42,122 nt of DNA from assembly GCA_029256575.1 (NCBI GenBank), contig JAQSXR010000028.1:1-42122 (forward strand), given 5' to 3'. The first letter of the stretch is position 1. Each line of letters opens with the position of its first letter. Source of the DNA: Clostridiales bacterium (GTDB lineage: Bacteria > Bacillota > Clostridia > Lachnospirales > JAQSXR01). This document shows, one piece after another, positions 4,078-41,143 of this stretch. Under the pieces are notes generated by a model. That model saw nothing but the letters and a program-made list of their open reading frames with translations, searched no databases and was not told where the DNA came from. Made by a program: the position numbers and the translations under genes.

Positions 4078-4386
4078 ATGCGTATGTACTTAATCAGCGA
4101 CAATGTAGATACCAAGACTGGTATGAGACTCGCTGGTGTTGATGGTGCCGTTGTTCACTCAAAAGAAGAAACTAAATTAATACTTGATAAAATTCTCGAT
4201 GAAAAAGATATTGCCATAGTTTTGATAACAGAAAAATTACGTGATCTTTTACCAGAATATATTGAGGACATAAAGTTAAACAGGAGATTACCATTAATAG
4301 TAGTTATTCCTGATAGACATGGTACTGGACTTAAATCAGATTTTATTACAGGATATATTAAAGAGGCTATTGGACTAAAAGTATAG
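4078..4386 (+). CDS. atpF: V-type ATP synthase subunit F (NtpG)
   Basis: The 102-residue Rossmann-like protein begins MRMYLISDNVDTKTGMRLAG and contains IAIVLITEKL and a terminal amphipathic helix, the standard pattern of the central-stalk F subunit. It binds subunit D and modulates ATPase activity. It starts five bases after the subunit K stop, so translation is probably coupled. Confidence 0.9.
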   Translation: MRMYLISDNVDTKTGMRLAGVDGAVVHSKEETKLILDKILDEKDIAIVLITEKLRDLLPEYIEDIKLNRRLPLIVVIPDRHGTGLKSDFITGYIKEAIGLKV

Positions 4387-4398
4387 GTAGGTGATATT

Positions 4399-4971
4399 GT
4401 GAGGTCAGAAAAGTTAGAAAAGTTTTCACAAGTTGTATTAAGAGAAGCTCAAGTTCAAAAAGGTTCAAAGATAGAAGACTGTGAAAGTAAAATTAATGAA
4501 GCTGTTAAAAAAATCGAAAATGAAACAAAACGAGCTTCATCACATTATTTACACAGTGAAATTAGAAAAGTTATTACTGCAAATACAAAAAGAATATCAG
4601 ATGAGCAAGTAACTTTACTACAAGAAATAAGTCATGTAAGAACAGAAATTGAAAATAATATAATGGATAATGTAACGAAGCGTATAAATGAATTTGTATT
4701 AACAAAAGAATATGAAGATTGGCTTTCTGATATTGTTGTAAAATCAGTAAAAAACTATGATCCAAAAGATATAATAGTTTATATAAATAATACTGATGAA
4801 AGATTAATAGGGCAATTAAACAAAATAACTACGGCTAATATTAAAGTTGCAAATGAGCACTTTATTGGAGGAGTTAAGATTGTTTGTGAAAGTAAAAGAA
4901 CAGTATTAAATAATACGATTCTTGAAGGATTAAAAGATGCTAGAGAGAACTTACAAAATGAAGTTATGTAA
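4399..4971 (+). CDS. atpE: V-type ATP synthase subunit E (peripheral stalk)
   Basis: The 190-residue protein has a long charged N-terminal helix (about 1-100) and a compact mixed C-terminal domain, including the conserved GGVKIVCESKRTVLNNTI segment near residues 152-170. It pairs with the G/H subunit at the operon start to form the stator. The start is GTG at 4399, preceded by GGTAGGTGA. It follows subunit F by 12 bases. Confidence 0.85.
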   Translation: MRSEKLEKFSQVVLREAQVQKGSKIEDCESKINEAVKKIENETKRASSHYLHSEIRKVITANTKRISDEQVTLLQEISHVRTEIENNIMDNVTKRINEFVLTKEYEDWLSDIVVKSVKNYDPKDIIVYINNTDERLIGQLNKITTANIKVANEHFIGGVKIVCESKRTVLNNTILEGLKDARENLQNEVM

Positions 4972-5004
4972 GTAATAATAAGAATGAGTATGGAGGGTGC
5001 TCCA

Positions 5005-20292: not shown

Positions 20293-20459
20293 ATGAAAAG
20301 ATAAAAATTCTTAATTCAAAAGGGTTTAATTTTCCTCTATAATATAATTACGGATATTTCTAGATAGGAGATGAAGGGGAGTGCAAACTATACAGAACTA
20401 CGAATATATAGTATAATTTTCTTATAATATTTTCCATATAATGCATGGGGGTGCTGAAG

Positions 20460-22250
20460 ATGAGAATAATAGGGGATTTCATGAAAATGTTAAAAATTCG
20501 AACTAAAATTATCTTACTCTATATCAGTGTACTTATTTTATCTTTAATTATCTCCTTTGCCGTCTTTAATCTCATGAATGATAGAAAAGTAGAACAAGAA
20601 GTGGGCGATGTTGCAATGCAAACGGTCAGCGCCTTAAAAGGGAATCTAGATTTAATCTTTGAGAACGTCTCGCAATTTTCCAACTTTATATATTTTGATA
20701 AAAATGTTCAAAAGGCATTATCGAATATCCAAACCTCGGGCATAGATCCATTAATTCAACAAACAATACAAAAAAGCTTAATTAATATGTTGTTATCAGG
20801 AAATTATATATCAAGCGTATTTGTTTTTGATAATTATAATAATTTCTATTACTCATATAAGGTTGGGCCAGTTTTTGTTAACAAAGAAAACATTAAGCAA
20901 TCAGAATGGTATAAGAATATGAAAGAAGCCAACGGAGAACTTCTTTTTATTCATAAAAGTGAAAATGTTATTTCATTCCAAACAAAAACGGAAAAGAATT
21001 ACATATCACTAATTCGAGAAATAGCAGATGTCGACACCTATAATCCCTTAGCAATTCTATTAATTACAGTGGATGAAAAAACAATACAAGACTATTTTGA
21101 TGAAGTTGGGAAAAAGTACAATTCTCAATTTTGTATTATTGACTCAAATGATAATTATATAGTAAAGCCATCTGGGTATAACGGCGATATGGATCAATTT
21201 TGGCTAGGTTCTGGGAAAGAGGAAGCAGGATATCGTACTGTACTTACTGGAAACGATAAAATGATAGTGGTTCAACAGGATTTAAAAATTAAAGATTGGA
21301 GGCTTATGGGTGCGTTACCTATGAACCTAAATAAAGTACCGGCTTCAAAATTTTATAGTCCATGGATTGCATTGATTGTGTCAATAAATCTAATTTTTGT
21401 TTTCGCTTGTTCTGTTGTTTTAACGAAGTTAATTTTTAAACCTTTGAATAAAGTGCAAAAACATATGAAATTGGTTGAAGATGGTCAGCTTATCGAGATG
21501 AATGTAGATATGCAAAATGAGAATGAAATAAATGATCTTAAAAAAGTGTTTAATCAGATGATTGAATCAATTAAGGAATTAATTGCAAAAGTGAAGAAAG
21601 AAGAAAAAATTATTGCAAAGCATGAATTGGATATTATCCAGGCGCAAATCCAACCCCATTTTCTCTATAATACCTTAGATGCTGTATCTGCATTGGCTTT
21701 GATTGGAGACAATGATAATTGTTTTAATATAACAAGGGCACTAGGGAATTTTTATCGTAATAGTTTAAATAGTGGATTAGATTTGGTAAGAATAAAAGAT
21801 GAAATTGAATGTATTGATAGTTATGTTACTATCCTAAATATTCGTTATGATAATAAAATTAAAATTACATATAACATAGAAAAAGAATTAATGGATTATA
21901 AGATTCTTAAATTAATATTGCAGCCAATTGTTGAGAATGCAGTTTATCATGGGATACGTTATTTAAAAGGTAATGGTAATATATCAATTGATGGATACAA
22001 AGTAGGGGATGAAATTATCTTTACAGTGATAGATGATGGACTTGGTATGAGCAAGGAAAAAATCTGTGAAATTGTAGAAGGTAAAACGCAAAATGGAAAA
22101 TCTGGATTTGGGTTGTATAGTTCAATTCAAAGGATTTCTCTTTATTATGATATCGAGAATCCGATAACGATTGCAAGTGAAATCGGAAAAGGAACGGAAA
22201 TTACCGTTCGAATCAAAGTAATTATAGGGGAGAGAACTGATGAAAATTAA
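20460..22250 (+). CDS. YesM-type sensor histidine kinase
   Basis: The 596-residue membrane sensor has one helix near 20-40, an extracellular sensing domain to about 295, a second helix near 300-320, a HAMP linker, a His_kinase domain with QIQPHFLYNTLDAV (His400), and an ATPase domain with N-box QPIVENAVYHGI and GLGMSKEK. It belongs to the HPK8/LytS-YesM class. ATG 20460 follows GGGGGTG by six bases; ATG 20481 with AGGGGA is an alternative. It overlaps the next gene by 11 bases and lies upstream of a sugar importer it probably controls. Confidence 0.92.
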   Translation: MRIIGDFMKMLKIRTKIILLYISVLILSLIISFAVFNLMNDRKVEQEVGDVAMQTVSALKGNLDLIFENVSQFSNFIYFDKNVQKALSNIQTSGIDPLIQQTIQKSLINMLLSGNYISSVFVFDNYNNFYYSYKVGPVFVNKENIKQSEWYKNMKEANGELLFIHKSENVISFQTKTEKNYISLIREIADVDTYNPLAILLITVDEKTIQDYFDEVGKKYNSQFCIIDSNDNYIVKPSGYNGDMDQFWLGSGKEEAGYRTVLTGNDKMIVVQQDLKIKDWRLMGALPMNLNKVPASKFYSPWIALIVSINLIFVFACSVVLTKLIFKPLNKVQKHMKLVEDGQLIEMNVDMQNENEINDLKKVFNQMIESIKELIAKVKKEEKIIAKHELDIIQAQIQPHFLYNTLDAVSALALIGDNDNCFNITRALGNFYRNSLNSGLDLVRIKDEIECIDSYVTILNIRYDNKIKITYNIEKELMDYKILKLILQPIVENAVYHGIRYLKGNGNISIDGYKVGDEIIFTVIDDGLGMSKEKICEIVEGKTQNGKSGFGLYSSIQRISLYYDIENPITIASEIGKGTEITVRIKVIIGERTDEN

Positions 22251-23013
22251 AGTTTTATTAGTTGATGACGAAAAATTAGAACGTGTATTAATACGTAAGG
22301 GTTATGACTGGGAGGCTAATGGATTCGAGATTATTGGGGAAGCAAGTAGTGGCGATGAGGCTTTACAATTATTTAGTATAAATGAACCGCACATTGTATT
22401 AACAGATATAAATATGCCTTTTATGGATGGCCTTATGCTTACAGAAAAGATAAAAGAACGTTCGAGAAATTGCCGTGTTGTTATTGTAACCGGATACCGT
22501 GAATTTGAATATGCAAGAAAGGCATTAAAGCTTGGAGTAAAAGATTTCATCTTAAAACCAATGAATATACAAGATATAGCCAATATTGTAGAAAAAATTA
22601 AGAACGAATTAAAGGATGAAGAAGAAGTTAACTTAAAAAATTCTATAAAACCTATCTATGAAAAGAATGATACAATCCAAAATAGAAAAAGTAATAAACT
22701 CATTGATCAAACGTTAGAATATATAGAAATACACCTATATGAACAATCACTAACTTTGAAAGATATTGCAAAGAAAGTATATTCCAATGAGAGTTATCTA
22801 AGCCGCGCTTTTAAAAAAGAAATGGGAGAATGTCTAATCGAATATATTACGAGAAAAAGGATTGAACAAAGTATTGTCCTTTTAAATACAACAAATTTGA
22901 AAGCATATGAAATTGCTGACCAAATTGGAATAGGTGATCCACATTATTTTAGCATATGCTTCAAGAAACAGGTGGGAGTTACGTTTAAAGAATATAAGAC
23001 AAGTAATAACTAG
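22240..23013 (+). CDS. YesN-type response regulator with AraC DNA-binding domain
   Basis: The 257-residue protein has a receiver domain (1-120) with acidic pair Asp9/Asp10, phosphoacceptor Asp56 (LTDINMPFMDG) and Lys in ILKPMN, then a linker and an AraC-type double helix-turn-helix (about 155-255: LTLKDIAKKVYSNESYLSRAFKK and YEIADQIGIGDPHYFSICFKKQVG). It is the partner of the overlapping kinase and is likely an activator of the sugar ABC genes just downstream. Confidence 0.93.
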   Translation: MKIKVLLVDDEKLERVLIRKGYDWEANGFEIIGEASSGDEALQLFSINEPHIVLTDINMPFMDGLMLTEKIKERSRNCRVVIVTGYREFEYARKALKLGVKDFILKPMNIQDIANIVEKIKNELKDEEEVNLKNSIKPIYEKNDTIQNRKSNKLIDQTLEYIEIHLYEQSLTLKDIAKKVYSNESYLSRAFKKEMGECLIEYITRKRIEQSIVLLNTTNLKAYEIADQIGIGDPHYFSICFKKQVGVTFKEYKTSNN

Positions 23014-23099: not shown

Positions 23100-23201
23100 T
23101 ATATTAACATACAGAGCATGCTTATGTTAAAGTTTTAGTGTCAAGGTAGCAAAACAAAAAATAGGTTCTAATTAAAATTGGGACAATATGGGGGTAATTT
23201 T

Positions 23202-24560
23202 ATGAAAAAAGTTTTAAAAAAACTAATCACACTTCTTTTAGTAGTAGTATTTACAATGAGTATGGCAGCTTGTGGTAAAGAAGATAAGGAAACATTAAAA
23301 GAACAGAATGATACTTCAACGAAAACCCAAGAAACACCAGACACGCCAGAAACACAAGAAAAAGTAGAACCAGTTACTCTAAATGTATGGCATCAATGGT
23401 CAAATGAAACAAATGAACTTAAAAAAGTATACGATCAAGCAGTTACCGATTATATAGCAGAAAATCCACATGTTACAATTAATACACAAACACTTGATAC
23501 GGAAGCATATAAGACTAAAATTTCTGCTGAATTTGCAGGAAATGCAAGTGGAATTGATGTATTTTACTACTGGGGTGCTGGTACTGCAAGAAAACTTATT
23601 AATGCAGATAAACTACTTCCTATAGATAAATATCTAACAGATGAAATAAAAGCAAAGATTTTACCAGGCGCAACGGCAGCATTTGAATATAATGGAAAAA
23701 CGTATTCGTTACCAACATTCTCTTGGTATATGACATTATATGCAAATAAAGATTTATTTGAGAAAGCAGGAGCAACCCTTCCTACAACTTATGATGAATT
23801 AATTGATGCAGTTAATAAATTAGGAAAACTTGATGGGGTTACACCAATCGCAGCAGGTGCTAAAGATGGTTGGAATGCAGCATTTGTTTATCAAGCATTT
23901 GCCCTTAGAGAAGTTGGAGCAACAAATGTTAATGCAATGTTAAAGGGGGAAATACCTTTTGAAGATGCAGGTTATACAGAAGCTGCGAATAAAGTAGTTG
24001 AATTATATGAATTAGGAGCTTTTGGTAAAAATCCATTAGAATCTGGTAATGATGATTCTAACGCAGCATTTGGTAGTGGTAGAGCAGCGATGAGAATTAT
24101 GGGTAGTTGGTTTGCCAACGGACTATATACGGATCCAACAATTACAATTAATCCTGACGACGTAGTAGCGTTAAAGATTCCTATGATACCAGGAAAAGGC
24201 AGTGCAAGTGATTATGCAGGCGGATTCGTTGAAGCATTTTGGGTGAACAAAAATACAAAATATGCAGATGAAGCTGCAAAATTTGCTATTAGTATTAATG
24301 AAAAAGTAGGTAAAGCAGCTTATGAAACAGGAACCGGTTTTTGTGGATGGGATATTGAGCTTGATGATAGTAAATTGAATCCATTATTTGTTCAAATAAA
24401 AGGTTTATTGGGAGAAAGCGTAGAAGGAGTATTAGCATGGGATACTTCTCTTGATTCTAATCCAGCTACAATTCACAATGAACAAGTACAGACGCTATTT
24501 GCCCCAAATGCAGACGTGAGTGCATTTATTAAAGAACATCAAGCGGCTATTAATAAATAG
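23202..24560 (+). CDS. ABC sugar importer, substrate-binding lipoprotein (CUT1 type)
   Basis: The 452-residue protein has a lipoprotein signal (MKKVLKKLITLLLVVVFTMS, lipobox MAAC, lipid Cys24), a Thr/Pro/Glu-rich tether to about residue 50, and a periplasmic-type binding fold starting TLNVWHQWSNE. It belongs to the large extracellular solute-binding family 1/8 for oligosaccharides; the sugar cannot be told from sequence. ATG 23202 follows GGGGGT by eight bases; the longer reading frame from TTG 23178 lies over that site. Confidence 0.9.
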   Translation: MKKVLKKLITLLLVVVFTMSMAACGKEDKETLKEQNDTSTKTQETPDTPETQEKVEPVTLNVWHQWSNETNELKKVYDQAVTDYIAENPHVTINTQTLDTEAYKTKISAEFAGNASGIDVFYYWGAGTARKLINADKLLPIDKYLTDEIKAKILPGATAAFEYNGKTYSLPTFSWYMTLYANKDLFEKAGATLPTTYDELIDAVNKLGKLDGVTPIAAGAKDGWNAAFVYQAFALREVGATNVNAMLKGEIPFEDAGYTEAANKVVELYELGAFGKNPLESGNDDSNAAFGSGRAAMRIMGSWFANGLYTDPTITINPDDVVALKIPMIPGKGSASDYAGGFVEAFWVNKNTKYADEAAKFAISINEKVGKAAYETGTGFCGWDIELDDSKLNPLFVQIKGLLGESVEGVLAWDTSLDSNPATIHNEQVQTLFAPNADVSAFIKEHQAAINK

Positions 24561-24599
24561 ACTATATATAATATTTGATTATATTTAGCACTTTTGTAT

Positions 24600-24639
24600 A
24601 AGGAATTATCACTTACTTGGACATAAGTGGTAGTTCCTT
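24600..24639 (+). promoter_or_regulatory. Intercistronic hairpin after the sugar-binding gene
   Basis: AAGGAATTATCACTTA (24600-24615) pairs with TAAGTGGTAGTTCCTT (24624-24639) with G-U pairs and an eight-base loop. No T-run follows, so it is more likely an mRNA-end stabiliser or partial attenuator that gives more binding protein than permease. Confidence 0.6.
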
Positions 24640-24716
24640 AACAATTTAAGACAATATAAGGGTATCATTTCAGCAAACACCCTTGACTAAACACTGTACA
24701 TAATAGGAGGGTATCT

Positions 24717-25610
24717 ATGGATCGGATGTTGGGTAGAAAGCGTTATATAGCGGTATTTATCTTACCTGCATTATTGGTATTTGTTTTATTTACAATAGCC
24801 CCTTTAATCGTTACGGGCATCTATAGCTTGTTTGAATATGATGGGATTGGTACGATGAAATTCTTAGGGTTGAAGAATTATATCGATTTATTTACTACTG
24901 ACAAACATTTTCTTACTGCAATAGTAAATTCGTTTATATTAGCGGGTGCATCAATTTTTATTCAACTTCCAATATCATTTTTTCTAGCGAGTATTTTAGC
25001 GAGAGGAGTAAAGGGAGAAAAGTTCTTTCGAACAATCTATTTTATACCAGTAGTTATCTCAAGTATGGTTATTGGCCAATTATGGATGAAAATATTTAAT
25101 AGTCAATATGGATTACTAAACACAATAATTAGATGGTTTGGAGATCCCGAATTTGAATTCTCCTGGCTCGCGACACCATCAACTGCTTTTTTTACTACCG
25201 TTATTCCGGCAGTATGGCAATATGTTGGGTATCATATGTTGATTTTTTATGCAGGTATAAAATCAATTCCTCCAGATTATCTAGAAGCAGCAAGGATTGA
25301 TGGAGCTAGTAAACGTCAGATTACTACAAAGATTATGATACCATTATTAGCTCCTGTAATTAAAATTTGCCTACTTTTTTCGTTAACAGGTTCCTTTAGA
25401 GCTTTTGATTTAATCTATGTAATCACAGGTGGTGGACCAAACCATGCAAGTGAAGTTCCTGGAACTTTATTGTATAATAATTTATTCCGACGAGGTCTTT
25501 ATGGTTACGGAAGTGCGCAAGCTTTTTTCATTGTTATTGAGTGTTTGTTATTCAGCTTTGTAATCAGGCGGCTATTTAAAAAAGCGGAAGAGAATGCGTC
25601 AGCAGTATAA
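24717..25610 (+). CDS. ABC sugar importer permease 1 (UgpA/MalF-like)
   Basis: The 297-residue permease has six membrane helices and the EAA loop EAARIDGASKRQITTKIMIP near residues 192-211, which contacts the ATPase. The start is ATG 24717, five bases after AGGAGGG. It lies between the binding-protein gene and permease 2. Confidence 0.92.
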   Translation: MDRMLGRKRYIAVFILPALLVFVLFTIAPLIVTGIYSLFEYDGIGTMKFLGLKNYIDLFTTDKHFLTAIVNSFILAGASIFIQLPISFFLASILARGVKGEKFFRTIYFIPVVISSMVIGQLWMKIFNSQYGLLNTIIRWFGDPEFEFSWLATPSTAFFTTVIPAVWQYVGYHMLIFYAGIKSIPPDYLEAARIDGASKRQITTKIMIPLLAPVIKICLLFSLTGSFRAFDLIYVITGGGPNHASEVPGTLLYNNLFRRGLYGYGSAQAFFIVIECLLFSFVIRRLFKKAEENASAV

Positions 25611-25622
25611 GGAGGTGGAAGG

Positions 25623-26453
25623 ATGAGATTGAAAAACATAAAGAAAAAGGCTCTTTTTGTTCTACTATTATTAATTGCAGTTGTTCAGCTATTTCCCCTA
25701 TATTGGCTTATTACTTACTCACTAAAGAGTAATGGTGAAATCTTTGGTGACAATGTGCTTGGACTTCCACGGGATTGGAGATGGATTAATTACAAAACTG
25801 CTTTGTCAGGTAGTGGTATCATAAGATATTTTTTAAATTCTATATTCTACTCTGTAGTAACGGTTGTTGTTGCAGGAACTATCAGCGCTATGGCAGCTTA
25901 TGCTATTGCACGAATGAAGTGGAAATTAAAGCACTTCGTATATGGGATATTTACAATTGGGATCATGATACCTGCTCAAGCAGCTTTACTACCATTGTTT
26001 CAATTGTTAGATAAATTAGGACTAAAGGGTGGATACTTAGGACTCTTAATTCCATATATTTCATTTGCAATTCCTATGGCTATTTTGATCTTGACTGGAT
26101 TTTATAAAAGTATACCAAAAGAATTGGAAGAGGCAGCCTATATTGACGGATGTGGAATATTTAGATGTTTCTCAACGATTATGCTACCAATTATTAAACC
26201 AGCCCTAGCAACCGCTTCCATATTTACCTTCCTCGGTACTTGGAATGAATTAATGTTTGCTAACACTTTAGTTGATAGTCAAAAATATCGAACTTTACCA
26301 GTTGGAATAATGTCTTTCTCAGGACAATACTCAACGGATTGGGGATTAATTGGGGCAGCGATGTTTCTTGCAACACTACCAACGATACTAATCTATTTTA
26401 TATTGAGTAATCAGATACAAGAAAGCCTAGTCGCTGGGGCAGTTAAGGGATAA
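25623..26453 (+). CDS. ABC sugar importer permease 2 (UgpE/MalG-like)
   Basis: The 276-residue permease has six membrane helices and the EAA loop EEAAYIDGCGIFRCFSTIML near residues 184-203. AAGGAGGTGG precedes ATG 25623. No ATPase gene follows; importers of this class commonly share an MsmX/UgpC-type ATPase encoded elsewhere, which is inferred here. Confidence 0.92.
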   Translation: MRLKNIKKKALFVLLLLIAVVQLFPLYWLITYSLKSNGEIFGDNVLGLPRDWRWINYKTALSGSGIIRYFLNSIFYSVVTVVVAGTISAMAAYAIARMKWKLKHFVYGIFTIGIMIPAQAALLPLFQLLDKLGLKGGYLGLLIPYISFAIPMAILILTGFYKSIPKELEEAAYIDGCGIFRCFSTIMLPIIKPALATASIFTFLGTWNELMFANTLVDSQKYRTLPVGIMSFSGQYSTDWGLIGAAMFLATLPTILIYFILSNQIQESLVAGAVKG

Positions 26454-26608: not shown

Positions 26609-26756
26609 ATTTCTTTGTCCTCATATAAATCACATAAAAACACGAAAAGAAAATTATATTGTAGTTATGCTTACTATAAGTTATAATTATAGTTAAAATC
26701 TATGATAGCTGATTGCAGATATTTAATTATTTCTGCAAGTATAAGGTGAGGTGTTT

Positions 26757-27845
26757 ATGAATAATCCATTTATAAGTAAGTTTGGTGATACTGGTTATGA
26801 ATATCCGACTAACTGCTCATTAAATAGAATTAAATTAGCAAAGCTACCAATAAAAGGTATTGAAGATGATATAGAGGGTAAAATAGTTTTGGATATATTT
26901 GGAGCTGGTGCTTTAATAAATGAAATTAAAAAATATGCGAATGAATTAAAGATAGATTTGAAACTTATTGAAGAGAAAGAATTACCGAAATACTTAAGTG
27001 CAAGCTTTGAAAGTGATGATTTTGTTGTTGTTCAAACAGCTAACGATATAGTAAGAAAGTTTGGAAATCGACTTGGGTTAATATTACTAACACTGAAGAT
27101 GGGTGAACAAGAAAATCAATTAGCTAGAGATGATTGGAATAAGGAAATGTGGGATTACTGGGCGAATATCAAAACAATTATTCTAGTTGGTGGGTTAGCG
27201 AGTGGAGTACTTGGAGTGAAATTCAAAGAATATACAATCAATCTATTTCATATGGCTAAAGTTGATCCTTATGAAATTATACTTTTTAATAATTCAGCTC
27301 ACATAGGAGTATTGGGTTGTGCTACACAAATAAAAGAACAAAATAGTATGAATATTATTTTTGACTTTGGACAAACAAATATAAAACGTAGTATAGTTAA
27401 GATATGTAATGGTGAAATATCTAATATAACAACACTCGAATCAAGAATATCAAAGTATGCTAGGTTTGATATTACAGGTAATAATGAGAACTATGAAGAA
27501 GCAATAAAGTTACATGAGTATTTAATGCAAGCAATTATAGATACCTATAACGTTGCCAAAGAATGTGGTGAGGTTGGAAGTGAAATTATAATTAGTATAG
27601 CAAGTTATACTATAAGAGGAAAGCTAGATGATAATCGAGGTGGGTATGCAAAGCTATCAAACCTTGCATTTAATTATGCAGATTACCTTTCAGAGGAATT
27701 ATCAAAATTATTAAGTAAAGAAGTGAAAGTTACATTAATACATGATGGAACTGCAGCAGCGTTGAATTTTAGAAACTATAAGGATTCTGTATGTATAACG
27801 ATGGGAACCGCATTTGGTATAGGTTTCCCGGAGATTAAAATATAG
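26757..27845 (+). CDS. ASKHA-fold (ROK/sugar-kinase-like) protein with apparently permuted motif order
   Basis: The 362-residue protein is not a standard member of any family I can name. Kinase-like motifs occur in an unusual order: an adenosine-type loop TIILVGGLASG (about 140-150) with the following helix end HIGVLGCATQI (182-192), then a phosphate-1 motif IIFDFGQTNIK (about 200-210), then LIHDGTAAALN (327-337) and VCITMGTAFGIGFP (345-358) at the very C-terminus. In ROK kinases and hexokinases the order is phosphate-1, then Asp-containing loop, then GTGIGGG, then the GGG adenosine loop. Start ATG 26757 follows AGGTGAGG. A sugar kinase role is possible from the ABC neighbour, but is inference. 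A chance motif resemblance is the main alternative. Confidence 0.6.
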   Translation: MNNPFISKFGDTGYEYPTNCSLNRIKLAKLPIKGIEDDIEGKIVLDIFGAGALINEIKKYANELKIDLKLIEEKELPKYLSASFESDDFVVVQTANDIVRKFGNRLGLILLTLKMGEQENQLARDDWNKEMWDYWANIKTIILVGGLASGVLGVKFKEYTINLFHMAKVDPYEIILFNNSAHIGVLGCATQIKEQNSMNIIFDFGQTNIKRSIVKICNGEISNITTLESRISKYARFDITGNNENYEEAIKLHEYLMQAIIDTYNVAKECGEVGSEIIISIASYTIRGKLDDNRGGYAKLSNLAFNYADYLSEELSKLLSKEVKVTLIHDGTAAALNFRNYKDSVCITMGTAFGIGFPEIKI

Positions 27846-28647: not shown

Positions 28648-29628
28648 ATGAATGAACTAGCTAATTTGCTAGGTGGTATTGTAGGTTTTGGATTTGATTT
28701 AATAGGAATATTTTTTAGAGTTGTTTTTGCACTCATCATATGCGTGGTTGCTCTCTTTAAAAACAGAAATCCATTCTTTTGGGGATTCGCAACATTTTTA
28801 TTTCCATGGATAGGTATTTTGTTTTTCTTTATACCAGCAAGAAGGGTAGTCGTAAGAACTTACTTGTCAAATAACCCAGCTTTTATGGGCAAGGATATGT
28901 GTATTGGATCAATCATGGCATTATCTGCAATCGTAGCAAAAGCAGATGGAGCAGTTACAGCAGATGAACTTAAGGTGATTAAGAACTTTGTTACTACTAA
29001 ATTCCATATATTTGGAGATGATTTGGATTCTTATGCGGATGCATTTAACTATGGAAAAGAACATCCAGATGAATATAAAGAGTTTGCTAGGATTATAAAG
29101 ACTTATTATGGAAGACGAGACATAATTATTGGGTTAGCTTATACATTAGTCTCTGTTGCAATGAACGATGGAACAATATCGGAGCCGGAAGATACTATAG
29201 TAAGAAATATCATAGTTGAACTTGGACTTTCGGTATATGAATACAATAGCTTAAAAAATTCATTCAACTCACAAGGAAGTGGAACTTATTCACAATTTGG
29301 ACAAGGTGGTTTTGGTGGATTTGGAGGATTTACTGGTTTTAGTGGATTTGAAGGCTTTGAAGGTTTTGGTGAAGGTTATGCAGGGACCAATGGATATTCA
29401 GGTCCAAGTCAAACAAAACTAACAAAAAAATATTGTGAAGTTTTAGGTGTGGATGAAGATGCATCAATGAATGATATAAAGAAAGCATATAGAAGATTGG
29501 CGAAAGAATATCATCCTGATAAATTAGCGTCAGAAGGAATGCCAGCTGATTATCTAGAGTTTGCTAACAAAAAGATTCTTGAGATAAACGAAGCTTATGA
29601 GCAATTGAAAAAAATCAAAGGTGAATAA
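28648..29628 (+). CDS. DjlA-like membrane J-protein with TerB domain
   Basis: The 326-residue protein has two hydrophobic N-terminal segments (about 15-37 and 43-62), a TerB-like helical domain (about 82-200) and a Gly/Phe-rich linker (217-245). A C-terminal J-domain (about 260-324) follows, with the HPD motif at 289-291 in EYHPDK, needed to stimulate DnaK. The layout is that of E. coli DjlA (membrane anchor, TerB, J), with a longer Gly/Phe region. It probably recruits DnaK to the membrane face; the client is unknown. Confidence 0.86.
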
Positions 29629-29719: not shown

Positions 29720-30040
29720 CTACTGTTTTTTAAAATCTTTTGTATCTATAATTAGTGTTACTGGTCCATCATTTAGAACAGATAGTTTCATGTCAGCACC
29801 GAATTCACCGGTCTGTACGAGAAGTTGTCCGTTTACTTGACTAAGTGAAAGGTTCATTTTCTCATTTTCATCTTCAAATATTCTAAGTCCAGTACATTTA
29901 TCCGCAAGCAACATTGCATCCTCTTCTGAGTCCTCAAGCCCAATTCCAAGTAAAATCACAAACCCAGTACCAATTTCCCCAACAATATTCCCATCTATCT
30001 TTACAGTTGCCCCAGTAGTTCTCTGAATAACAGCACGCAT
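29720..30040 (-). pseudogene. dtd: D-aminoacyl-tRNA deacylase, internally deleted (lacks catalytic motif)
   Basis: The 106-residue product reads as Dtd at both ends: MRAVIQRTTGATVKIDG, FVILLGIG, LRIFEDENEKMNLSL, then TGEFGADMKLSVLNDGPVTL. Normal Dtd has about 145-150 residues. The joint at residues 75-76 (NGQLLV|QTGEFG) removes the segment that carries the SQFTL motif, whose Ser/Thr help form the active site, and the following RKGxRPSF part. The frame is kept, so translation is possible, but activity is unlikely. The Gly-Pro element NDGPVT remains. It may be a decayed copy, a true short form or an assembly error. Confidence 0.8.
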
Positions 30041-30735: not shown

Positions 30736-31824
30736 ATGAAGAAAAGAGCGTTAGCAATATTACTTGCAGCAATGTTAGTTATGAGTATGGCAAGCTGTGG
30801 AAAGAAAGATGAAAAAGATGCTACAACAAAAACGAAGGACGATGTAACAACAACTACTACAGAAGCAGAAACACCAGTGGTAGAAGAAACAAAATTATCA
30901 GGAAAGTTAGTAGTATATTCACCACATCCACTTGAATTTATGGATCCACTTATTCAAGAATTTGAGAATAGAACAGGCGTATCAGTTGAAGTTATTGCAG
31001 CAGGTACAGGAGAATTAATTAAGAGAATTGAAGCAGAAGCAGGTAATGCGCAAGGAGATATTATGTGGGGCGGTACAATTGCTCTTCTTGGAACAAACAC
31101 TTCAATATTTGAACAATATACATCAGTAAATGAAGATGCTATTTTACCAGATTACAAAAACAAAACAGGAGCTGTAACAGCATTTACTGTAGTTCCAAGT
31201 GTACTTGTAGTTAATACTAATTTAGCAGCAGGAATTGAAATTAATGGATATGAAGATTTATTAAATCCAGAATTAAAAGGCAAAATAGCACACTGTGATC
31301 CTGCTAAATCATCTTCTTCATTTGAACATGTAATTAACATGTTAAATGCAATGGGTAATGGAGATCCAGAAGCTGGTTGGGACTTTACTGGAAAATTCAT
31401 CAAAAATCTTGATGGAAAATTATTAAGTGGTTCTTCCGCAGTTTACAAGGGAGTAGCTGACGGTGAATATACAGTTGGTTTAACTTTTGAAGAAGGCGCA
31501 GTTAAGAGTTTAGTAGACGGAGCACCAGTTGAAGTAGTATATATGGAAGAAGGCGTTATCTGTAGAGCAGATGGTATTGCAGTAATCAAAGATGCAGCTA
31601 ACATTGAAAATGCAAAAGCATTCATTGATTTCGTTACAAGTAAAGAAGCTCAAGAAATCGTTATCGCTAAATTAAACAGAAGAACAGTAAGAAATGACGT
31701 TGGTTCTGCAAATGGACTTACAGCTTATGAAGACATTAAAATCTTAAATGATGATGTTGATTGGGCAACTAGTAACAAACAAGCAGTTTTAGATAAATTC
31801 AAAGATTTATTTACATCAAACTAA
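30736..31824 (+). CDS. ABC importer substrate-binding lipoprotein, Fbp/Afu type
   Basis: The 362-residue protein has a lipoprotein signal with lipobox SMASC (Cys21), a Thr-rich tether (28-50), then a type II binding fold: KLVVYSPHPLEFMDPLIQEF, VIAAGTGELIKRIEAE and GDIMWGG. It resembles FbpA/AfuA/PhnS binding proteins. The FbpA iron site normally has two neighbouring Tyr after a G-E-x-x-x-G segment; here that region is GEYTVGLTFEEGA (243-255) with no Tyr pair, so Fe3+ is doubtful. Sugar phosphate or phosphonate are alternatives. AGGAGG precedes ATG 30736. Confidence 0.88.
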   Translation: MKKRALAILLAAMLVMSMASCGKKDEKDATTKTKDDVTTTTTEAETPVVEETKLSGKLVVYSPHPLEFMDPLIQEFENRTGVSVEVIAAGTGELIKRIEAEAGNAQGDIMWGGTIALLGTNTSIFEQYTSVNEDAILPDYKNKTGAVTAFTVVPSVLVVNTNLAAGIEINGYEDLLNPELKGKIAHCDPAKSSSSFEHVINMLNAMGNGDPEAGWDFTGKFIKNLDGKLLSGSSAVYKGVADGEYTVGLTFEEGAVKSLVDGAPVEVVYMEEGVICRADGIAVIKDAANIENAKAFIDFVTSKEAQEIVIAKLNRRTVRNDVGSANGLTAYEDIKILNDDVDWATSNKQAVLDKFKDLFTSN

Positions 31825-31859
31825 GCAAATTACGTAATTTTTTGAAATACCTTCCTTTT

Positions 31860-31889
31860 AATGGTGGTGACTAATTAGTCTCCACCATT
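31860..31889 (+). promoter_or_regulatory. Intercistronic hairpin after the Afu-type binding gene
   Basis: AATGGTGG (31860-31867) pairs with CCACCATT (31882-31889); inside, GACTA pairs with TAGTC. No T-run follows. As after the other binding-protein gene (24600-24639), it may protect the upstream mRNA or reduce readthrough into the ATPase and permease genes. Confidence 0.65.
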
Positions 31890-31961
31890 AATGATAAAAA
31901 GGACGGAAAAGGGAATAGAAGTTCTCAGACATATCTAAATTTTAAAAATGGAGGAATCACA

Positions 31962-33071
31962 ATGAGCGTACAAATACATGTAGAAAACGTAATAAAAAAG
32001 TATGGGGATAATGTAATTATTCCTAATTTATCAGTTGATATTGAGAACGGAGAATTATTCACTTTACTTGGGCCATCAGGATGTGGAAAGACTACTTTAC
32101 TTAGAATGATAGCAGGTTTTAATTCTATCGAGGGCGGTCAAATAAAATTCAATAACGATGTTATTAATGATTTACCAGCTCATAAAAGAAACATAGGTAT
32201 GGTTTTCCAAAGCTATGCGATATTCCCTCATTTAACGGTTAGACAAAATGTAGAATACGGCATGAAAATGAGGAAAGTAAAGAAAACTATTATGAAAAAG
32301 AAAGTAGATGACATTCTTCATGTAGTTAGAATTGATACATATCAAAATAGATTGCCAGAAAGATTGTCAGGCGGTCAACAACAACGTGTTGCATTAGCAC
32401 GTGCAATAGTAATAGAACCAACAGTTTTATTAATGGATGAACCACTTTCGAACTTGGATGCAAAATTAAGAATTGAAATGAGATCAGCAATTAAGGATAT
32501 TCAAAAAAAGGTTGGTATTACAACCGTATATGTAACACATGACCAAGAAGAAGCTCTTGCTATATCAGATAGAATAGCAGTTATGAAAGATGGAGTTATA
32601 CAACAAGTTGGAAAACCATTCGAAATATATTTAAGACCAAAGAATATATTCGTAGCAAGCTTTATTGGGCATTCCAATGTATTTAAAGCGACTATAGAAG
32701 TATTAGACAAGAAAGTATATGTTAAATTTGAAAACGGTTTTAAAGTTGAGATGACGAATTTAGTAGATACAGTAGTAAATGGGCAAGAAGTAAAAGTATC
32801 TGTTAGACCAGAAGAATTCACAATTGGAGAGAATGGATTTAAAGGAACAATTACTTCAAGCACTTTCTTAGGAAAATACGTTAATTATACAGTTAATTTT
32901 AATCAAAATATTATTGAAGAATTAGAAGGAAATATAGAGTTTACTCAAGATTTAAATACTTTTTCCAAAATTTTCGAAGTCGGAGGAAGCATAGGATTAG
33001 AATTGAATCTTAATAAGATAAATGTTTATACAGCTGACGGACAAACAAGTTTAATAAAAGGAGTGAATTAA
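31962..33071 (+). CDS. ABC importer ATPase, FbpC/PotA type
   Basis: The 369-residue ATPase has Walker A GPSGCGKTT (37-45), Q-loop VFQSYAIFPH, signature LSGGQQQRVALARA (135-148), Walker B LLMDEP (156-161), D-loop and His193 in VTHDQEEA. The C-terminal about 120 residues form a TOBE-like regulatory domain (VRPEEFTIGENGF...). GGAGGA precedes ATG 31962. It powers the permease encoded two bases later. Confidence 0.94.
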   Translation: MSVQIHVENVIKKYGDNVIIPNLSVDIENGELFTLLGPSGCGKTTLLRMIAGFNSIEGGQIKFNNDVINDLPAHKRNIGMVFQSYAIFPHLTVRQNVEYGMKMRKVKKTIMKKKVDDILHVVRIDTYQNRLPERLSGGQQQRVALARAIVIEPTVLLMDEPLSNLDAKLRIEMRSAIKDIQKKVGITTVYVTHDQEEALAISDRIAVMKDGVIQQVGKPFEIYLRPKNIFVASFIGHSNVFKATIEVLDKKVYVKFENGFKVEMTNLVDTVVNGQEVKVSVRPEEFTIGENGFKGTITSSTFLGKYVNYTVNFNQNIIEELEGNIEFTQDLNTFSKIFEVGGSIGLELNLNKINVYTADGQTSLIKGVN

Positions 33072-33072
33072 T

Positions 33073-34752
33073 ATGTCAAAGAAAAAATTTAAATTTGACT
33101 TTTGGTCCGGAGTAACCTTAGCGATTATGGCTGTATTTATTATATTCTTAATATACCCTTTGCTATCGCTTGTTGTTCAAGCTTTTAAGGATCCAGGTTC
33201 AGAAAGTTTTACATTAGCAAATTTCTCGAAATTTTTTAGTAAAAAATATTACTATACAACAATGATAAACAGTTTCAAGGTAACAATTTGTGTAACGGTA
33301 TTAGCAATATTAATTGGTGCACCGTTAGCATATATTATGAAAACAATGAAGATCAGAGGGAAAGCAGTATTAGAAATATTGATTATGATATCAATGCTTT
33401 CACCACCGTTTATTGGGGCTTATTCTTGGGTATTACTATCTGGTAGAAACGGTGTGCTAACTAGATTCTTAACAAATGTATTAGGTATACAAAACCCTCC
33501 AAGTATATATGGATTTGGTGGAATATTACTAGTATTTACATTAAAACTATTTCCATTTATATATTTGTATGTTGGAGGAGCACTTAAAAAAGTCGACGTT
33601 GCACTTGGTGAAGCAGCAGAAAGCTTAGGATGTAGTGGAATAAAGAAAGTATTTACTCTTATTTTACCATTGGTTTTACCATCATTATTAGCAGGTGGAT
33701 TACTAGTATTTATGAACTCTTTAGCAGACTTTGGAACACCGATGTTAATTGGTGAAGGATTTAGAACAATGCCAGTTATTATATATGATGAATATATTAG
33801 TGAAATGGGTGGTCAAGCAAATTTTGCATCTGCACTTAGTACAATGATGATAATATTTACTGCAGGATTATTCTTAATTCAAAAATATATCGTAAATAAA
33901 AAATCATTTACGATGAGTTCAATGAGACCAATTGAAGCTAAGAAAGTAAAAGGAATGAAAAATATATTAGCTCATTTATTTGTTTACTTTGTTGTTTTCT
34001 TAGCGATCATACCACAAATAACAGTAATGTTTACTTCTTTCTTAAAAACAAAAGGGACTCAATTCGTTGGAGGAAGTGCATTTTCATCAGCAACGTATTC
34101 GTTTGATAGTTACAAAAAGATATTCGAGAAGATGAAAACGCCGATAATAAACACATTTACATTCGGTTTAATAGCGATTATAATTATTATAATAATAGGT
34201 ATGTTAGGTGCTTACGTTACGGTTCGTAAGAAAAATATATTTACTAATATTTTGGATACAGTAACAATGTTTCCATATATAATTCCAGGTTCTGTATTAG
34301 GTATCACATTATTAGTTACATTTAGTAAAGGTTCACTTCCACTTGGAGGAACAGCAATCATAATAATAGTTGCCTTTGTAATAAGAAGGTTGCCATATAC
34401 ATTAAGATCAAGTGCTGCGATTCTTTATCAGCTAAGTCCAAGTGTAGAGGAAGCATCAATCAGTTTGGGGGCATCTCCTGTAAAGACGTTCTTTAAAGTA
34501 ACTACTCGAATGATGTTACCAGGAGTATTCGCAGGAGCAATAATGAGTTGGATTACTGTTATAACAGAACTTAGTTCCTCAATTATGCTATATGTTACGA
34601 AAACACAAACATTATCAGTTGCAATATTTACTGAAGTTCTAAGAGCAAGTTACGGAACAGCAGCAGCGTTATCAACTATATTGACATTAACTACAGTAAT
34701 TTCTTTATTAATATTCTTTAAATTCTCAGGAAGTAAAGAAGTAAGTATGTAA
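33073..34752 (+). CDS. ABC importer permease, fused two-domain FbpB type
   Basis: The 559-residue protein has about twelve membrane helices in two permease domains, each with an EAA loop: GEAAESLGCSGIKKVFTLIL (about 178-197) and EEASISLGASPVKTFFKVTT (about 458-477). This fused form is typical of FbpB/AfuB. Its start follows the ATPase stop by one base, with AAGGAGTG inside the ATPase gene. Confidence 0.93.
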   Translation: MSKKKFKFDFWSGVTLAIMAVFIIFLIYPLLSLVVQAFKDPGSESFTLANFSKFFSKKYYYTTMINSFKVTICVTVLAILIGAPLAYIMKTMKIRGKAVLEILIMISMLSPPFIGAYSWVLLSGRNGVLTRFLTNVLGIQNPPSIYGFGGILLVFTLKLFPFIYLYVGGALKKVDVALGEAAESLGCSGIKKVFTLILPLVLPSLLAGGLLVFMNSLADFGTPMLIGEGFRTMPVIIYDEYISEMGGQANFASALSTMMIIFTAGLFLIQKYIVNKKSFTMSSMRPIEAKKVKGMKNILAHLFVYFVVFLAIIPQITVMFTSFLKTKGTQFVGGSAFSSATYSFDSYKKIFEKMKTPIINTFTFGLIAIIIIIIIGMLGAYVTVRKKNIFTNILDTVTMFPYIIPGSVLGITLLVTFSKGSLPLGGTAIIIIVAFVIRRLPYTLRSSAAILYQLSPSVEEASISLGASPVKTFFKVTTRMMLPGVFAGAIMSWITVITELSSSIMLYVTKTQTLSVAIFTEVLRASYGTAAALSTILTLTTVISLLIFFKFSGSKEVSM

Positions 34753-34776
34753 TGAAATGAATTAGGGGTGAGTGAT

Positions 34777-36477
34777 ATGAGCAAAAGAAAAGGTGTAATT
34801 TTTAAAGATAAAATTAAACGTGCCTTTATGCTCTATGCACTCATTCCTATTATTTTTTCAATTGTATTAATAAATTTATCAGTAATATTTCTAAGCTATA
34901 GTATTGCGAAAAGAAGTACAAGAGAAAGTTCGATTGCAATATCAAATAATATAGAAAATCAATTTCTAGAATATATAGCAAAAGGTCAAGAACTAGGGGA
35001 TTCTCCAGAGATAAAATCATTAATATTAAACTCAACCTATAAAGAAATTTACCCCGAAGTTTATCTCTTTATGAATAATAATGACTTTAAATCAAAGTTC
35101 TATGTATTTGATGCAGAGGCTAATCTAATTACCGGAAGTAGATTGAATCTTCCAGGATACTTGGAGAACATTGAAGAACCACTTTCTTGGGGAATATTCA
35201 AACAAATGAAAAATGACTTTGGACGAACAGTAATGCAAAAAAACATAAGTGTTTCTAGGTATGGAGAAAGTACGATTTATTCAATCGGTAATGCTGTAAT
35301 CGAAGACGAAAAAATTATAGGTTATGTCATATTTGACATTTATGAAGAAAGTTTTAAAAATAATTTAGTAAATTATCCGGATACAATTGTTGCGTTAACG
35401 GATGGATACGATAATATAGTCTACTCTACAAATGCACTCTTAGTAAAGCAAAATGGAAAGCTTAAAAATGAAATAAGAGAAATTACGGATGAAGGAATTA
35501 AGAGTAACAAATACACCGTTTATAAACAGGAAATATTCGATGGTAAGTTAAAAGTTTATTCAATTGCAATCAGAGGTGATTTGAATTCAGCATTAGAAAT
35601 TACAAATATTTTCGGAGGAATCATGATACTAATTATTTTTGTTAGTATGACTTTCATGTCCGAAAAGATTGCTAAAACAAATTCTGGAGGCTTAATGGAA
35701 CTAGCCAATGCTTTTGAGAAGATGAAGCAAGGGGATTTTGATACGAAGATTAATCTAACCTCAACGCTAGAGTTTGAAAGTATTTCTCAAGTTTATAATA
35801 GTACTTTAGATGATATTAAGAGATTGATGGCAGAGAATGAAGAACGTGCTACTCGAAATGTAATGTCTGAACTTCAGGCATTAGAAGCACAATTTAATCC
35901 GCATTTCTTATTTAATACGTTAGAGACCTTAAGATATACAATTGATCTTGATACAGTAGCAGCCAAGAATATAATTAAATTATTGGCGAATATTTTAAGA
36001 TATAGCATTAATCAAGATTATCAAGTAGTTATGTTTGGGCAAGACTTAGAATTTATTAAGTGCTATCTTGAGATTCAAAGCTGTAGGTTTAAGGATAAAT
36101 TCAAGTATAATTTAAAAATTGATTATAAAACAGAATCATGCATTCTTCCTAAATTAATTATTCAACCATTAATAGAAAATGCTATAAAATATGGATTTGT
36201 AGGTAAAACAGAATTAATAGTTGAGATTAAAGCTAGTATTATTAATGGAAATTTAGTAATTATAATTACAGATAGTGGTATCGGTATTAATGAAAAGAAA
36301 TTATCTGAGTTAAGATTGATTATAAATCAAGAAAATAATTTATCGGCTCATATTGGATTACACAACGTTCAGAGAAGAATTAAGCTAACATATGGACCAG
36401 AATATGGAATCGAAATAAATAGTAAATACCAGGAAGGAACAAAGTTAAAGATTGTAATACCAGAAAGACATTTTTAA
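34777..36477 (+). CDS. YesM-type sensor histidine kinase (second system)
   Basis: The 566-residue sensor has a membrane helix near 18-42, an extracellular domain to about 280, a second helix near 282-300, HAMP-like segment, His_kinase motif QFNPHFLFNTLETL (His376) and an ATPase domain with QPLIENAIKYGF. ATG 34777 follows AGGGGTGA; the GTG at 34768 lies over that site. The gene is 24 bases downstream of the permease, so the sensor is likely part of the importer operon and reads the same ligand or its loaded binding protein. Confidence 0.92.
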   Translation: MSKRKGVIFKDKIKRAFMLYALIPIIFSIVLINLSVIFLSYSIAKRSTRESSIAISNNIENQFLEYIAKGQELGDSPEIKSLILNSTYKEIYPEVYLFMNNNDFKSKFYVFDAEANLITGSRLNLPGYLENIEEPLSWGIFKQMKNDFGRTVMQKNISVSRYGESTIYSIGNAVIEDEKIIGYVIFDIYEESFKNNLVNYPDTIVALTDGYDNIVYSTNALLVKQNGKLKNEIREITDEGIKSNKYTVYKQEIFDGKLKVYSIAIRGDLNSALEITNIFGGIMILIIFVSMTFMSEKIAKTNSGGLMELANAFEKMKQGDFDTKINLTSTLEFESISQVYNSTLDDIKRLMAENEERATRNVMSELQALEAQFNPHFLFNTLETLRYTIDLDTVAAKNIIKLLANILRYSINQDYQVVMFGQDLEFIKCYLEIQSCRFKDKFKYNLKIDYKTESCILPKLIIQPLIENAIKYGFVGKTELIVEIKASIINGNLVIIITDSGIGINEKKLSELRLIINQENNLSAHIGLHNVQRRIKLTYGPEYGIEINSKYQEGTKLKIVIPERHF

Positions 36478-36530
36478 TCCTATATAGAAGTTCGAAGAAC
36501 ATTATACACTTATGAATTGGAGGGATTTAA

Positions 36531-37328
36531 ATGCTAAAAATTATAATTGTTGAAGATGAAGAAATTATTCGAAAAGGAATCGTACACACAATTGATTGGA
36601 TGTCACTCGGATGTACCGTTATTGCAGATGCAGAAAATGGAGAAGAAGGATTAGAGAAGATTCTTTTATTACGACCGGATTTAGTAATATCTGATATTAG
36701 AATGCCAATGCTAGATGGACTTGAGATGATTGAAAAGGCAAGAGCAGAATATTATTTCGAAGCAATATTACTAACCAGTTATGGTGAGTTTGAATATGCA
36801 AATAAAGCAATTAAACTAGGTGTTTTTGACTATATATTAAAACCTTTGGATGAGGAAATTCTTGCAGAGGTTATTTTGCGTGTCAAGAATAAAGTTACGG
36901 ATCATAAAATTGTTCAGGATGTAAAAGAACAAGTAAAGGATATAGAAGACATAAAGATAATAGATATTGAGATGTTTAAAAAGGAATCAAACAATAATTT
37001 TTACGTAGATAAGGTTATTAGCTATATTATAGAAAATTATAATAAGAAGATTACTTTTGAAGAGGTAGCTGAAACTTTGGGGGTAAGCACAAGTTATTTA
37101 AGTAGAAAATTGAAGGAAGTTTCAAATCAGACATTTTTAGATATTCTGAATAAATATAGAATACAAAAATCGATTGAACTTCTAATGAATGGCAATAACA
37201 GGATATATGAAGTTGCTTATTTAGTAGGATTTAGTGAATATAAACACTTTTGTACTGTTTTTAAAAAGTACACGAATGTTCCACCAACTAAATTTACAAA
37301 GTCAAATATGTATCTTGCGAAAAAATAA
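36531..37328 (+). CDS. YesN-type response regulator with AraC domain (second system)
   Basis: The 265-residue protein has a receiver domain with Glu8-Asp9-Glu10, Asp55 (ISDIRMPMLDG) and the Lys of ILKPLD. A linker follows, then a C-terminal AraC-type double helix-turn-helix (about 160-258: ITFEEVAETLGVSTSYLSRKLK and YEVAYLVGFSEYKHFCTVFKKYTN). It is the partner of the preceding kinase. TGGAGGG lies before ATG 36531. Confidence 0.93.
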   Translation: MLKIIIVEDEEIIRKGIVHTIDWMSLGCTVIADAENGEEGLEKILLLRPDLVISDIRMPMLDGLEMIEKARAEYYFEAILLTSYGEFEYANKAIKLGVFDYILKPLDEEILAEVILRVKNKVTDHKIVQDVKEQVKDIEDIKIIDIEMFKKESNNNFYVDKVISYIIENYNKKITFEEVAETLGVSTSYLSRKLKEVSNQTFLDILNKYRIQKSIELLMNGNNRIYEVAYLVGFSEYKHFCTVFKKYTNVPPTKFTKSNMYLAKK

Positions 37329-39238: not shown

Positions 39239-40570
39239 ATGAGTAAGTATTCAAAAGAGGATATAATTAACATAGTAGAAGATAACGATGTTAGATTCAT
39301 AAGACTTCAATTTACTGATATTTTTGGAATATTAAAGAATGTGGCTATCACACCAAGCCAACTAGAAAAAGCCTTAGATGGTAAATGTATGTTTGATGGT
39401 TCATCGATAGAAGGGTTTTCCAGAATCGAAGAATCCGACATGTACTTAAAACCGGATTTAGATACATTTGTAATCTTTCCTTGGAGACCTCAACAAGGTA
39501 AAGTTGCCAGATTAATCTGTGATGTGTATATGCCAGATGGTACACCTTTTGAAGGAGATCCAAGATATATACTAAAAAAGGCAATTCAAGAAGCCAAAGA
39601 CTTAGGTTATGAATTAAACGTAGGACCAGAGTGCGAATTCTTTCTATTCCATACGGATAACAATGGAAGAGCAACCACAATAACTCATGATGACGCAGGA
39701 TATTTTGACCTTGGACCAAATGATCTAGGTGGAAATGCAAGACGTGATATTTGTCTAACGCTAGAAGATATGGGATATGAAATCGAAGCCTCTCACCATG
39801 AAGTAGCGAAAGGTCAACATGAAATTGATTTTAAATATGCGGAAGCTCTTGCTGCTGCTGACAATATAATGACATTTAAATTAGTAGTAAAATCAATCGC
39901 GCAAAGAAATGGTTTAAGTGCAACCTTTATGCCAAAACCAATTTATGGAGTAAATGGTTCTGGAATGCACGTAAATATGTCTTTAATGAAAAATGGAGAA
40001 AATGCTTTCTATGATGTAAATACGGAAAGCGGATTAAGCAAATTAGCAGAACACTTTATTGCAGGAATCTTAGAACATATAAAAGCAATAACCGCTATCG
40101 CAAATCCACTTGTAAATTCATATAAAAGACTAATACCAGGATATGAAGCACCTTGTTATATTGCTTGGTCTTTAAGCAATAGAAGTCCTTTAATTAGGAT
40201 ACCTGCATCAAGAGGAATGGGAACTAGAGTTGAGTTAAGATCTCCTGACCCATCGGCGAATCCATATCTTGTAATTGCTGCTTGTCTTACAGCAGGCTTA
40301 GATGGAATTAAGAAACAGTTAGAGCCTGTGAAGAGCATAGATAAGAACATTTACTTGATGAGTGCTTCTGAACGATTAGCTGAAAATATTGGTAATTTAC
40401 CAGAGACCTTATTCGAAGCTATCGAAGAATTAGGTAAAGACGAAGTGATTAAAGAGGCACTAGGATCACATTTATGTGAAAGATATATAGAGGGCAAGAG
40501 AGAAGAATGGGAAGCATTTCGAGTAACCGTTACGGAATGGGAAGTAAATCAGTATTTAGGGAAATATTAA
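39239..40570 (+). CDS. glnA: Glutamine synthetase type I (GSI-alpha-like)
   Basis: The 443-residue enzyme makes glutamine from glutamate, ammonia and ATP. Motifs seen: beta-grasp start, [11 protein letters not shown], metal Glu motif [20 protein letters not shown] and [25 protein letters not shown]. The adenylylation Tyr motif (NLYDLP) of the GSI-beta type is absent, so control is probably by feedback and transcription. AAGGAGGA precedes ATG 39239. Length equals the Bacillus type. Confidence 0.96.
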
Positions 40571-40606
40571 ACTATATTTACACAATAGAACTCGGAGATG
40601 ATAATT

Positions 40607-41143
40607 ATGAAATGTATAATAACTGCATTTCCAAGTCGTAATACCTTACAAATTGTAAAAGATATTTTATTAGGTGCTGGTATTAGTGTAAATGTTGAGT
40701 GTCAATCAGGCGCAGAAGCAATGAGAGCAGCAGCAGGTTATGATGGTGGCATATTAATTTGTTCTTCAAGATTAGTAGACATTTTGGTTGTTGATCTGTG
40801 TAATATGATACCTGAGGGCTTTGATATATTAGTACTTATTTCAGAAGGTCAAGGAGGAATTGAATTTCCTGACAATGTATTTTCACTAGGTGCACCTATA
40901 AATAAACAACATTTGATTACGAGTGTTTCAATGTTGATAAAAATAAGTAAGAGACTTGGAAAAAGACAAAAAGATGATACAGATGATACAGATCTTGATA
41001 AGGAAATTATTTCAAAGGCGAAAGAAATACTTATGAGTAAATATTATTTTACAGAGAAGCAGGCACATCGGTTTATTCAGAAGAGAAGTATGGATAACGG
41101 AACGAAAATGGTCACGACTGCAAGATTAATATTAGAACAATAA
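40607..41143 (+). CDS. ANTAR-domain antiterminator with degenerate receiver (NitR-like)
   Basis: The 178-residue protein has a receiver-like N-terminal domain (1-110) and an ANTAR RNA-binding domain at the end (about 125-175: KEIISKAKEILMSKYYFTEK, then AHRFIQKRSMDNGTKM). The receiver lacks the acidic pair (IITAFPS) and the phospho-Asp (GILICSSRLVD), so phosphate transfer is unlikely. ATG 40607 follows GGAG by nine bases. Its place 36 bases after glnA, and the leader switch before glnA, make it the likely regulator of glnA. Confidence 0.88.
   Translation: MKCIITAFPSRNTLQIVKDILLGAGISVNVECQSGAEAMRAAAGYDGGILICSSRLVDILVVDLCNMIPEGFDILVLISEGQGGIEFPDNVFSLGAPINKQHLITSVSMLIKISKRLGKRQKDDTDDTDLDKEIISKAKEILMSKYYFTEKQAHRFIQKRSMDNGTKMVTTARLILEQ

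Follow-up and report, generated by a model that had tools for sequence, protein, structure and literature searches.

Few nucleotide-binding folds have been studied as thoroughly as the one shared by actin, hexokinase, and Hsp70 (the ASKHA fold); in its members, which include hexokinase, the FGGY kinases, actin and MreB, Hsp70, and the type II and III pantothenate kinases, the phosphate-1 motif lies in the first domain and the adenosine loop in the second. To our knowledge, no natural circular permutant of this fold has been described as such. A full-text search of the literature, limited to open-licence papers, turned up no circular permutant among ROK or ASKHA proteins, which is weak evidence of absence. 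In a kinase classification from 2005, fold groups may in general include circular permutants, and the passages found there name no ROK permutant (PMC1079889). Here we describe a gene at positions 26757 to 27845 (plus strand) of a stretch of 42,122 nucleotides (the window) from a Clostridiales bacterium (assembly GCA_029256575.1, contig JAQSXR010000028.1), the product of which is very probably a circular permutant of a ROK-like fold.

The reading frame encodes 362 amino acids (coding positions 26757 to 27842) followed by a stop codon, and its translation resembles the ROK family (PF00480; glucokinases, N-acetylmannosamine kinases, and Mlc) in carrying a DxGxT loop, a catalytic-type aspartate, a GTxxGxG hairpin, a GG loop, and an AGIIGAA-type helix, from which it differs in that their cyclic order is shifted. 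Residues 1 to 195 (26757 to 27341) correspond, by profile match and by superposition on Mlc, to the C-terminal part of a ROK protein, that is, to most of domain II. Within them lie the adenosine-type loop IILVGGLASG (residues 141 to 150; 27177 to 27206) and the segment HIGVLGCATQ (residues 182 to 191; 27300 to 27329), which hhalign aligns with the C-terminal helix of ROK proteins and which is modelled as a helix from residue 183 to residue 189. A linker placed by alignment at residues 192 to 197 (27330 to 27347) leads from the old C terminus to the old N terminus, and its length varies by up to 14 additional residues among homologues, as expected for a joint. Residues 198 to 362 (27348 to 27842) superpose in the model on the N-terminal half of a ROK protein, comprising domain I and the phosphate-2 hairpin of domain II; they contain the phosphate-1 motif DFGQTN (residues 203 to 208; 27363 to 27380), the sequence HDGTAAAL (residues 329 to 336; 27741 to 27764), equivalent to NDANxAAL of ROK proteins, and, at the new C terminus, the phosphate-2 motif GTAFGIGFP (residues 350 to 358; 27804 to 27830). 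The preliminary description of this DNA had read these motifs in this unusual order from the single sequence, and both the translation (motif starts at IILVGG 141, HIGVLG 182, MNIIFDFG 198, HDGTAA 329, and GTAFGIG 350) and the 25 proteins of the family bear it out.

Besides the window protein, we found 24 homologues, all from Clostridia, all in the permuted order, and none in the ordinary one; a scan of 398 genomes from the phylum with the permuted profile likewise yielded no relative in the ordinary order. The 25 aligned proteins are about 356 to 375 residues long and share one architecture, with the adenosine loop followed by the C-terminal-type helix, phosphate 1, the HD motif, and phosphate 2, and with a chain end about 3 to 30 residues past GFP or GFT. 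The patterns DxG.[TS], HDx[TY]A, and GGL are present in the same order in every member, and a GTxxGxGF-type pattern is matched in 24; G145, G146, and L147 of the adenosine loop, D203, G205, and K210 at phosphate 1, H329 and D330, and G350, G354, and G356 at phosphate 2 are invariant. Identity to the window protein ranges from 33 to 51% in an 11-member alignment. Homologues occur in Lachnospiraceae bacterium 28-4, in a Lachnospiraceae metagenome-assembled genome, in one further genome of the same order as the window (about 40% identity in a whole-genome search, the protein reading identical to the copy in the metagenome-assembled genome), and in two more families within the Clostridia, in one of which the gene was seen in 20 of 398 sampled genomes and 8 of 135 genera. 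Some Clostridia genera have the gene in every listed member. The ratio of nonsynonymous to synonymous substitution rates (dN/dS), computable for four close homologue pairs, was 0.10 to 0.22, indicating purifying selection. A misassembled contig that fused two half genes would also yield halves in the wrong order, yet such an artefact is vanishingly improbable and is refuted by the homologues: 25 proteins, drawn from several genera and about 24 separate assemblies, share this order along the whole chain.

The family is unnamed in the family databases that we searched: the native window sequence had no match in Pfam, NCBIfam, PDB sequences, plasmids, viral contigs, or a first scan of genome contigs, and a profile search of PDB sequences in either order returned chance matches only. 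One candidate homologue (G428/L008) was rejected as a chance match to an apparent SpoIID protein.

The permutation can be followed in a comparison of sequence profiles. A native-order profile of the 25 family proteins was compared by hhalign with a profile of 24 ordinary ROK proteins from the window's genome and related genomes, and three separate segments matched: family positions 48 to 194 with ROK 185 to 314 (E = 0.0044), reaching the last residues of ROK; 200 to 224 with ROK 4 to 27 (E = 0.017), which covers phosphate 1; and 311 to 357 with ROK 94 to 144 (E = 0.0009), where HDGTAAAL is paired with NDANCAAL and GTAFGVGF with LGTGVGGG. In the order of the query, the ROK segments thus run 185 to 314, 4 to 27, and 94 to 144 without overlap, which amounts to one cyclic shift. 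The three segments and their arrangement were reproduced with each of two disjoint subsets of the ROK proteins, and ROK against ROK gave one collinear match. When the family profile was halved, its N-terminal part matched the ROK profile with an E value of 0.0019 and its C-terminal part with one of 7e-6, and both outscored all 200 column-shuffled controls. Several observations temper this result. The E values for the whole native profile, between 0.0009 and 0.017, are modest, and the raw hhalign score of the whole family profile against ROK was 34.1 both before and after re-permutation; what supports the permutation is how the separate matches are ordered, not a higher total. Pfam PF00480 did not match the window protein in its native order; after re-permutation it scored 12.2 bits (E = 0.13), short of the gathering cut-off of 22.9, and the best PF00480 E value within the family was 0.016.

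Structure models agree with the profiles, and since the structural Z scores are not strong alone, we place weight on this agreement. The AlphaFold model of the window protein, built like the other from three sequences only, has an actin-like fold (predicted local distance difference test score [pLDDT], 73.8; predicted template modeling score [pTM], 0.70), and in a DALI-like comparison its two halves superpose on opposite halves of ROK proteins. Residues 195 to 362 match positions 405 to 559 of human ManNAc kinase (the kinase of GNE, hMNK) with a Z score of 9.6 (3.2 Å over 136 residues, 20% identity), residues 197 to 362 match 4htl 1 to 145 (22% identity) and 5nck 1 to 149 (18%), and residues 13 to 187 match the ROK repressor Mlc at 237 to 385 (Z = 8.0, 3.0 Å, 127 residues). 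The model of the Lachnospiraceae 28-4 protein (pLDDT, 63.0; pTM, 0.58) repeats the match of the C-terminal half to a ROK N-terminal half (residues 191 to 353 on 2yhy 405 to 550; Z = 9.9, 2.6 Å). Both checks proposed in the preliminary description, an order-independent comparison with a ROK structure and a profile search allowing for permutation, were made in closely related forms, and both returned the cyclic shift that it had anticipated.

The models also supply points that speak against a permutation. They rest on three sequences, they are weak at the new ends (residues 1 to 20 and 351 to 362, the latter mostly with pLDDT below 50), and Z scores near 8 to 10 are not strong by themselves. Furthermore, whole-chain superpositions in the same order on actin, MreB, and the CAB1 pantothenate kinase score similarly, with Z scores from 8 up to 9.8, as might be expected of an ASKHA protein in the ordinary order. 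DFGQT would then belong to domain II as its phosphate-2 motif, and the N-terminal half would be what is left of an eroded domain I; both ASKHA domains have the same fold, and one could be taken for the other. Such an origin would, however, leave unexplained the second phosphate-type hairpin (GTAFGVGFP) and the HD motif at the C terminus, and by model secondary structure the N-terminal half is without the first strands of a domain I. The same-order superpositions fit at about 4.2 to 6.1 Å with 6 to 14% identity, versus 2.6 to 3.2 Å and up to 22% for the swapped halves, and the ROK profile matches are specific to individual motifs, that of residues 48 to 194 reaching the end of ROK. We therefore regard an unpermuted chain as very unlikely, and we consider the same-order superpositions probably to reflect the pseudo-symmetry of the two ASKHA domains and have set them aside. 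Plain Foldseek searches of the PDB gave matches of low template modeling score, mostly to Hsp70, and were not used as evidence. Taken together, these comparisons lead us to conclude that the family is a real, conserved circular permutant.

A separate question is from which branch of the fold the permutant came. The family carries the nucleotide-site motif set common to ASKHA proteins, with phosphate 1, phosphate 2, and adenosine motifs all present and their key glycines and aspartate invariant, and it shares with them the actin-like two-domain fold; in the models, however, the two RNase H-like domains do not follow one another as I and II, since domain II is divided between the chain ends. Of the features that define ROK proteins, the DxGxT motif (DFGQT, residues 203 to 207) and the putative catalytic aspartate (D330, aligned with the aspartate of NDANxAAL) are found in all 25 members. 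The DxGxT motif does not stand at the N terminus ahead of the others, being preceded by the adenosine loop in every member, and the ExGH sugar-binding motif and the zinc motif CxCGxxGC each occur in none of the 25, versus 23 of 24 ROK controls in either case. As the ExGH and zinc motifs are absent and the score stays below the Pfam cut-off, the family is, as judged from its sequence, ROK-like and not a member of ROK as defined. Absence of the zinc site has precedent in true ROK kinases that keep the fold, namely, NanK of Fusobacterium nucleatum (5nck) and Lmo2764 of Listeria (4htl) (PMC5458393). These two are also close structural matches of residues 197 to 362; they differ from the permuted family in having the ordinary order, and FnNanK retains ExGH. 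The low overall similarity to ROK would also suit a parent in another ASKHA branch such as the FGGY kinases, some of which also carry an HD catalytic motif. We consider such a parent improbable, given that a profile of 19 FGGY kinases, the one other branch compared in this way, reached a best E value of 0.15, no similarity, versus 7e-6 and 0.0019 for the halves against ROK, and that ROK proteins give the best structural matches for the separate halves. Within the order, we noted partial Pfam ROK matches in frames of about 350 residues in several genomes, of the same kind as in a ROK-type protein with a DNA-binding-like N-terminal region (L010, positions 1192 to 2247, minus strand, on contig C43 of genome G000), where the match covers only positions 9 to 155 of 294.

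The site of the new ends may bear on how the protein evolved. The permuted chain stops directly behind the phosphate-2 hairpin. In ROK proteins, that hairpin is followed by the sugar-binding ExGH motif and by the zinc loop (PMC5458393 and PMC2742894), which places the new termini beside the position where ROK proteins carry ExGH. We propose that the chain of an ancestor was opened within domain II, after the phosphate-2 hairpin and before the strand that follows it, and that the old C-terminal helix became connected through a short linker to what had been the first strand; once folded, the product would be an ordinary two-lobed, cleft-forming kinase. Among ordinary ROK proteins, the GNE kinase has its C-terminal helix packed into the N-lobe (PMC2742894), so that joining the old ends by a short linker would be physically easy. 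The preliminary description had likewise argued that the old termini lie close enough to be joined, a point that this structure upholds, and that a ROK chain was recut inside domain II; profiles and models support a cut there, after the phosphate-2 hairpin, whereas the name ROK itself does not hold in a family without ExGH and zinc motifs. In a wider reading, which we put forward tentatively and with less than even confidence, the permutation would be natural and ancient, fixed across several families of Clostridia, and would have put both termini at the edge of domain II that binds the sugar, replacing the ExGH/zinc element and opening a new substrate specificity. If true, the two-lobed hinge machine of this fold tolerates new chain ends inside domain II. 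Family models would miss these proteins because a permuted chain splits a linear profile match into pieces below the cut-off, and further proteins of this kind may be hidden for the same reason.

As to function, the sequences suggest that the family is most likely an ATP-dependent small-molecule kinase, with a carbohydrate perhaps as substrate. ATP would be held between three elements, the DFGQT loop for magnesium and phosphate, the GTAFGVG hairpin for phosphate, and the VGGL loop for adenosine, and D330 would be expected to serve as general base, deprotonating a hydroxyl group of the acceptor. The invariant nucleotide-site motifs and the dN/dS of about 0.1 to 0.2 favor an active protein, and we hold kinase activity of some kind to be rather probable; a carbohydrate as acceptor is our most likely guess, to which we give close to an even chance. 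Every carrier tested also has a canonical ROK protein, so the permuted protein is not simply a stand-in glucokinase, and with the ExGH and zinc elements absent and new termini in their place, its substrate is probably unlike that of the carriers' ordinary ROK proteins. The protein might instead have kept the permuted ROK-like fold, lost catalysis, and become a regulator or a scaffold, comparable to the ROK repressors that are not kinases. The absence of ExGH and zinc motifs and of a steady operon partner would fit this, but the 362 residues show no sign of a DNA-binding domain, and a non-catalytic protein need not keep the phosphate-1 aspartate, the HD aspartate, and the phosphate-2 glycines invariant throughout the family; we consider loss of catalysis unlikely. 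The family is small and suited to biochemical tests of the proposed kinase activity.

Gene neighborhoods are too variable to fix a substrate. In one genus, glgB/glgC and adjacent genes lie nearby, and two genomes have a pullulanase-like gene beside the permuted one, both of which are in keeping with the proposed explanation; several genomes carry an ABC-2 exporter in this position, and synteny points to sporulation-type genes. Of the neighbor names, pullulanase, sporulation, radical SAM, glgD, and glgA were read from sequence by eye. In genus g470, a conserved protein without a Pfam match is encoded directly 3' of the permuted gene (L050, positions 3996 to 5168; L093, 6350 to 7522; also L091, L092, and L094); this protein (cluster C9, 390 amino acids in complete copies) lies, in most of these loci, between the permuted gene and the glycogen genes.

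In the window, a Shine-Dalgarno-like sequence, aaggtgagg (26743 to 26751, plus strand), stands 5 bases upstream of the ATG of the permuted gene, and the opposing frame on the reverse strand holds many stops. Sugar-type ABC transporter genes (23178 to 26453) lie upstream, and a ThiF-family gene follows 31 bases 3' of the permuted gene. The second gene 3' (28648 to 29628, plus strand) encodes a membrane-type N terminus followed by TerB and DnaJ domains (PF05099 and PF00226), a DjlA-like arrangement. Two pairs of a sensor kinase and an AraC-type response regulator, YesM/YesN-like by eye, are encoded on the plus strand at 20445 to 23013 and 34768 to 37328, and each adjoins an ABC transporter gene set, the sugar-type set already mentioned and another at 30736 to 34752. 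On the minus strand, 29720 to 30040 encode a 106-residue protein resembling D-aminoacyl-tRNA deacylase in which NGQLLV jumps to QTGEFGADMK. Ordinary enzymes of this type have about 40 more residues at this junction, the SQFTLYAD motif among them; the middle is apparently missing, in what looks like an in-frame internal deletion. Finally, positions 39239 to 41143 (plus strand) carry a glutamine synthetase-like gene followed directly by one for a short protein resembling an ANTAR-type regulator.
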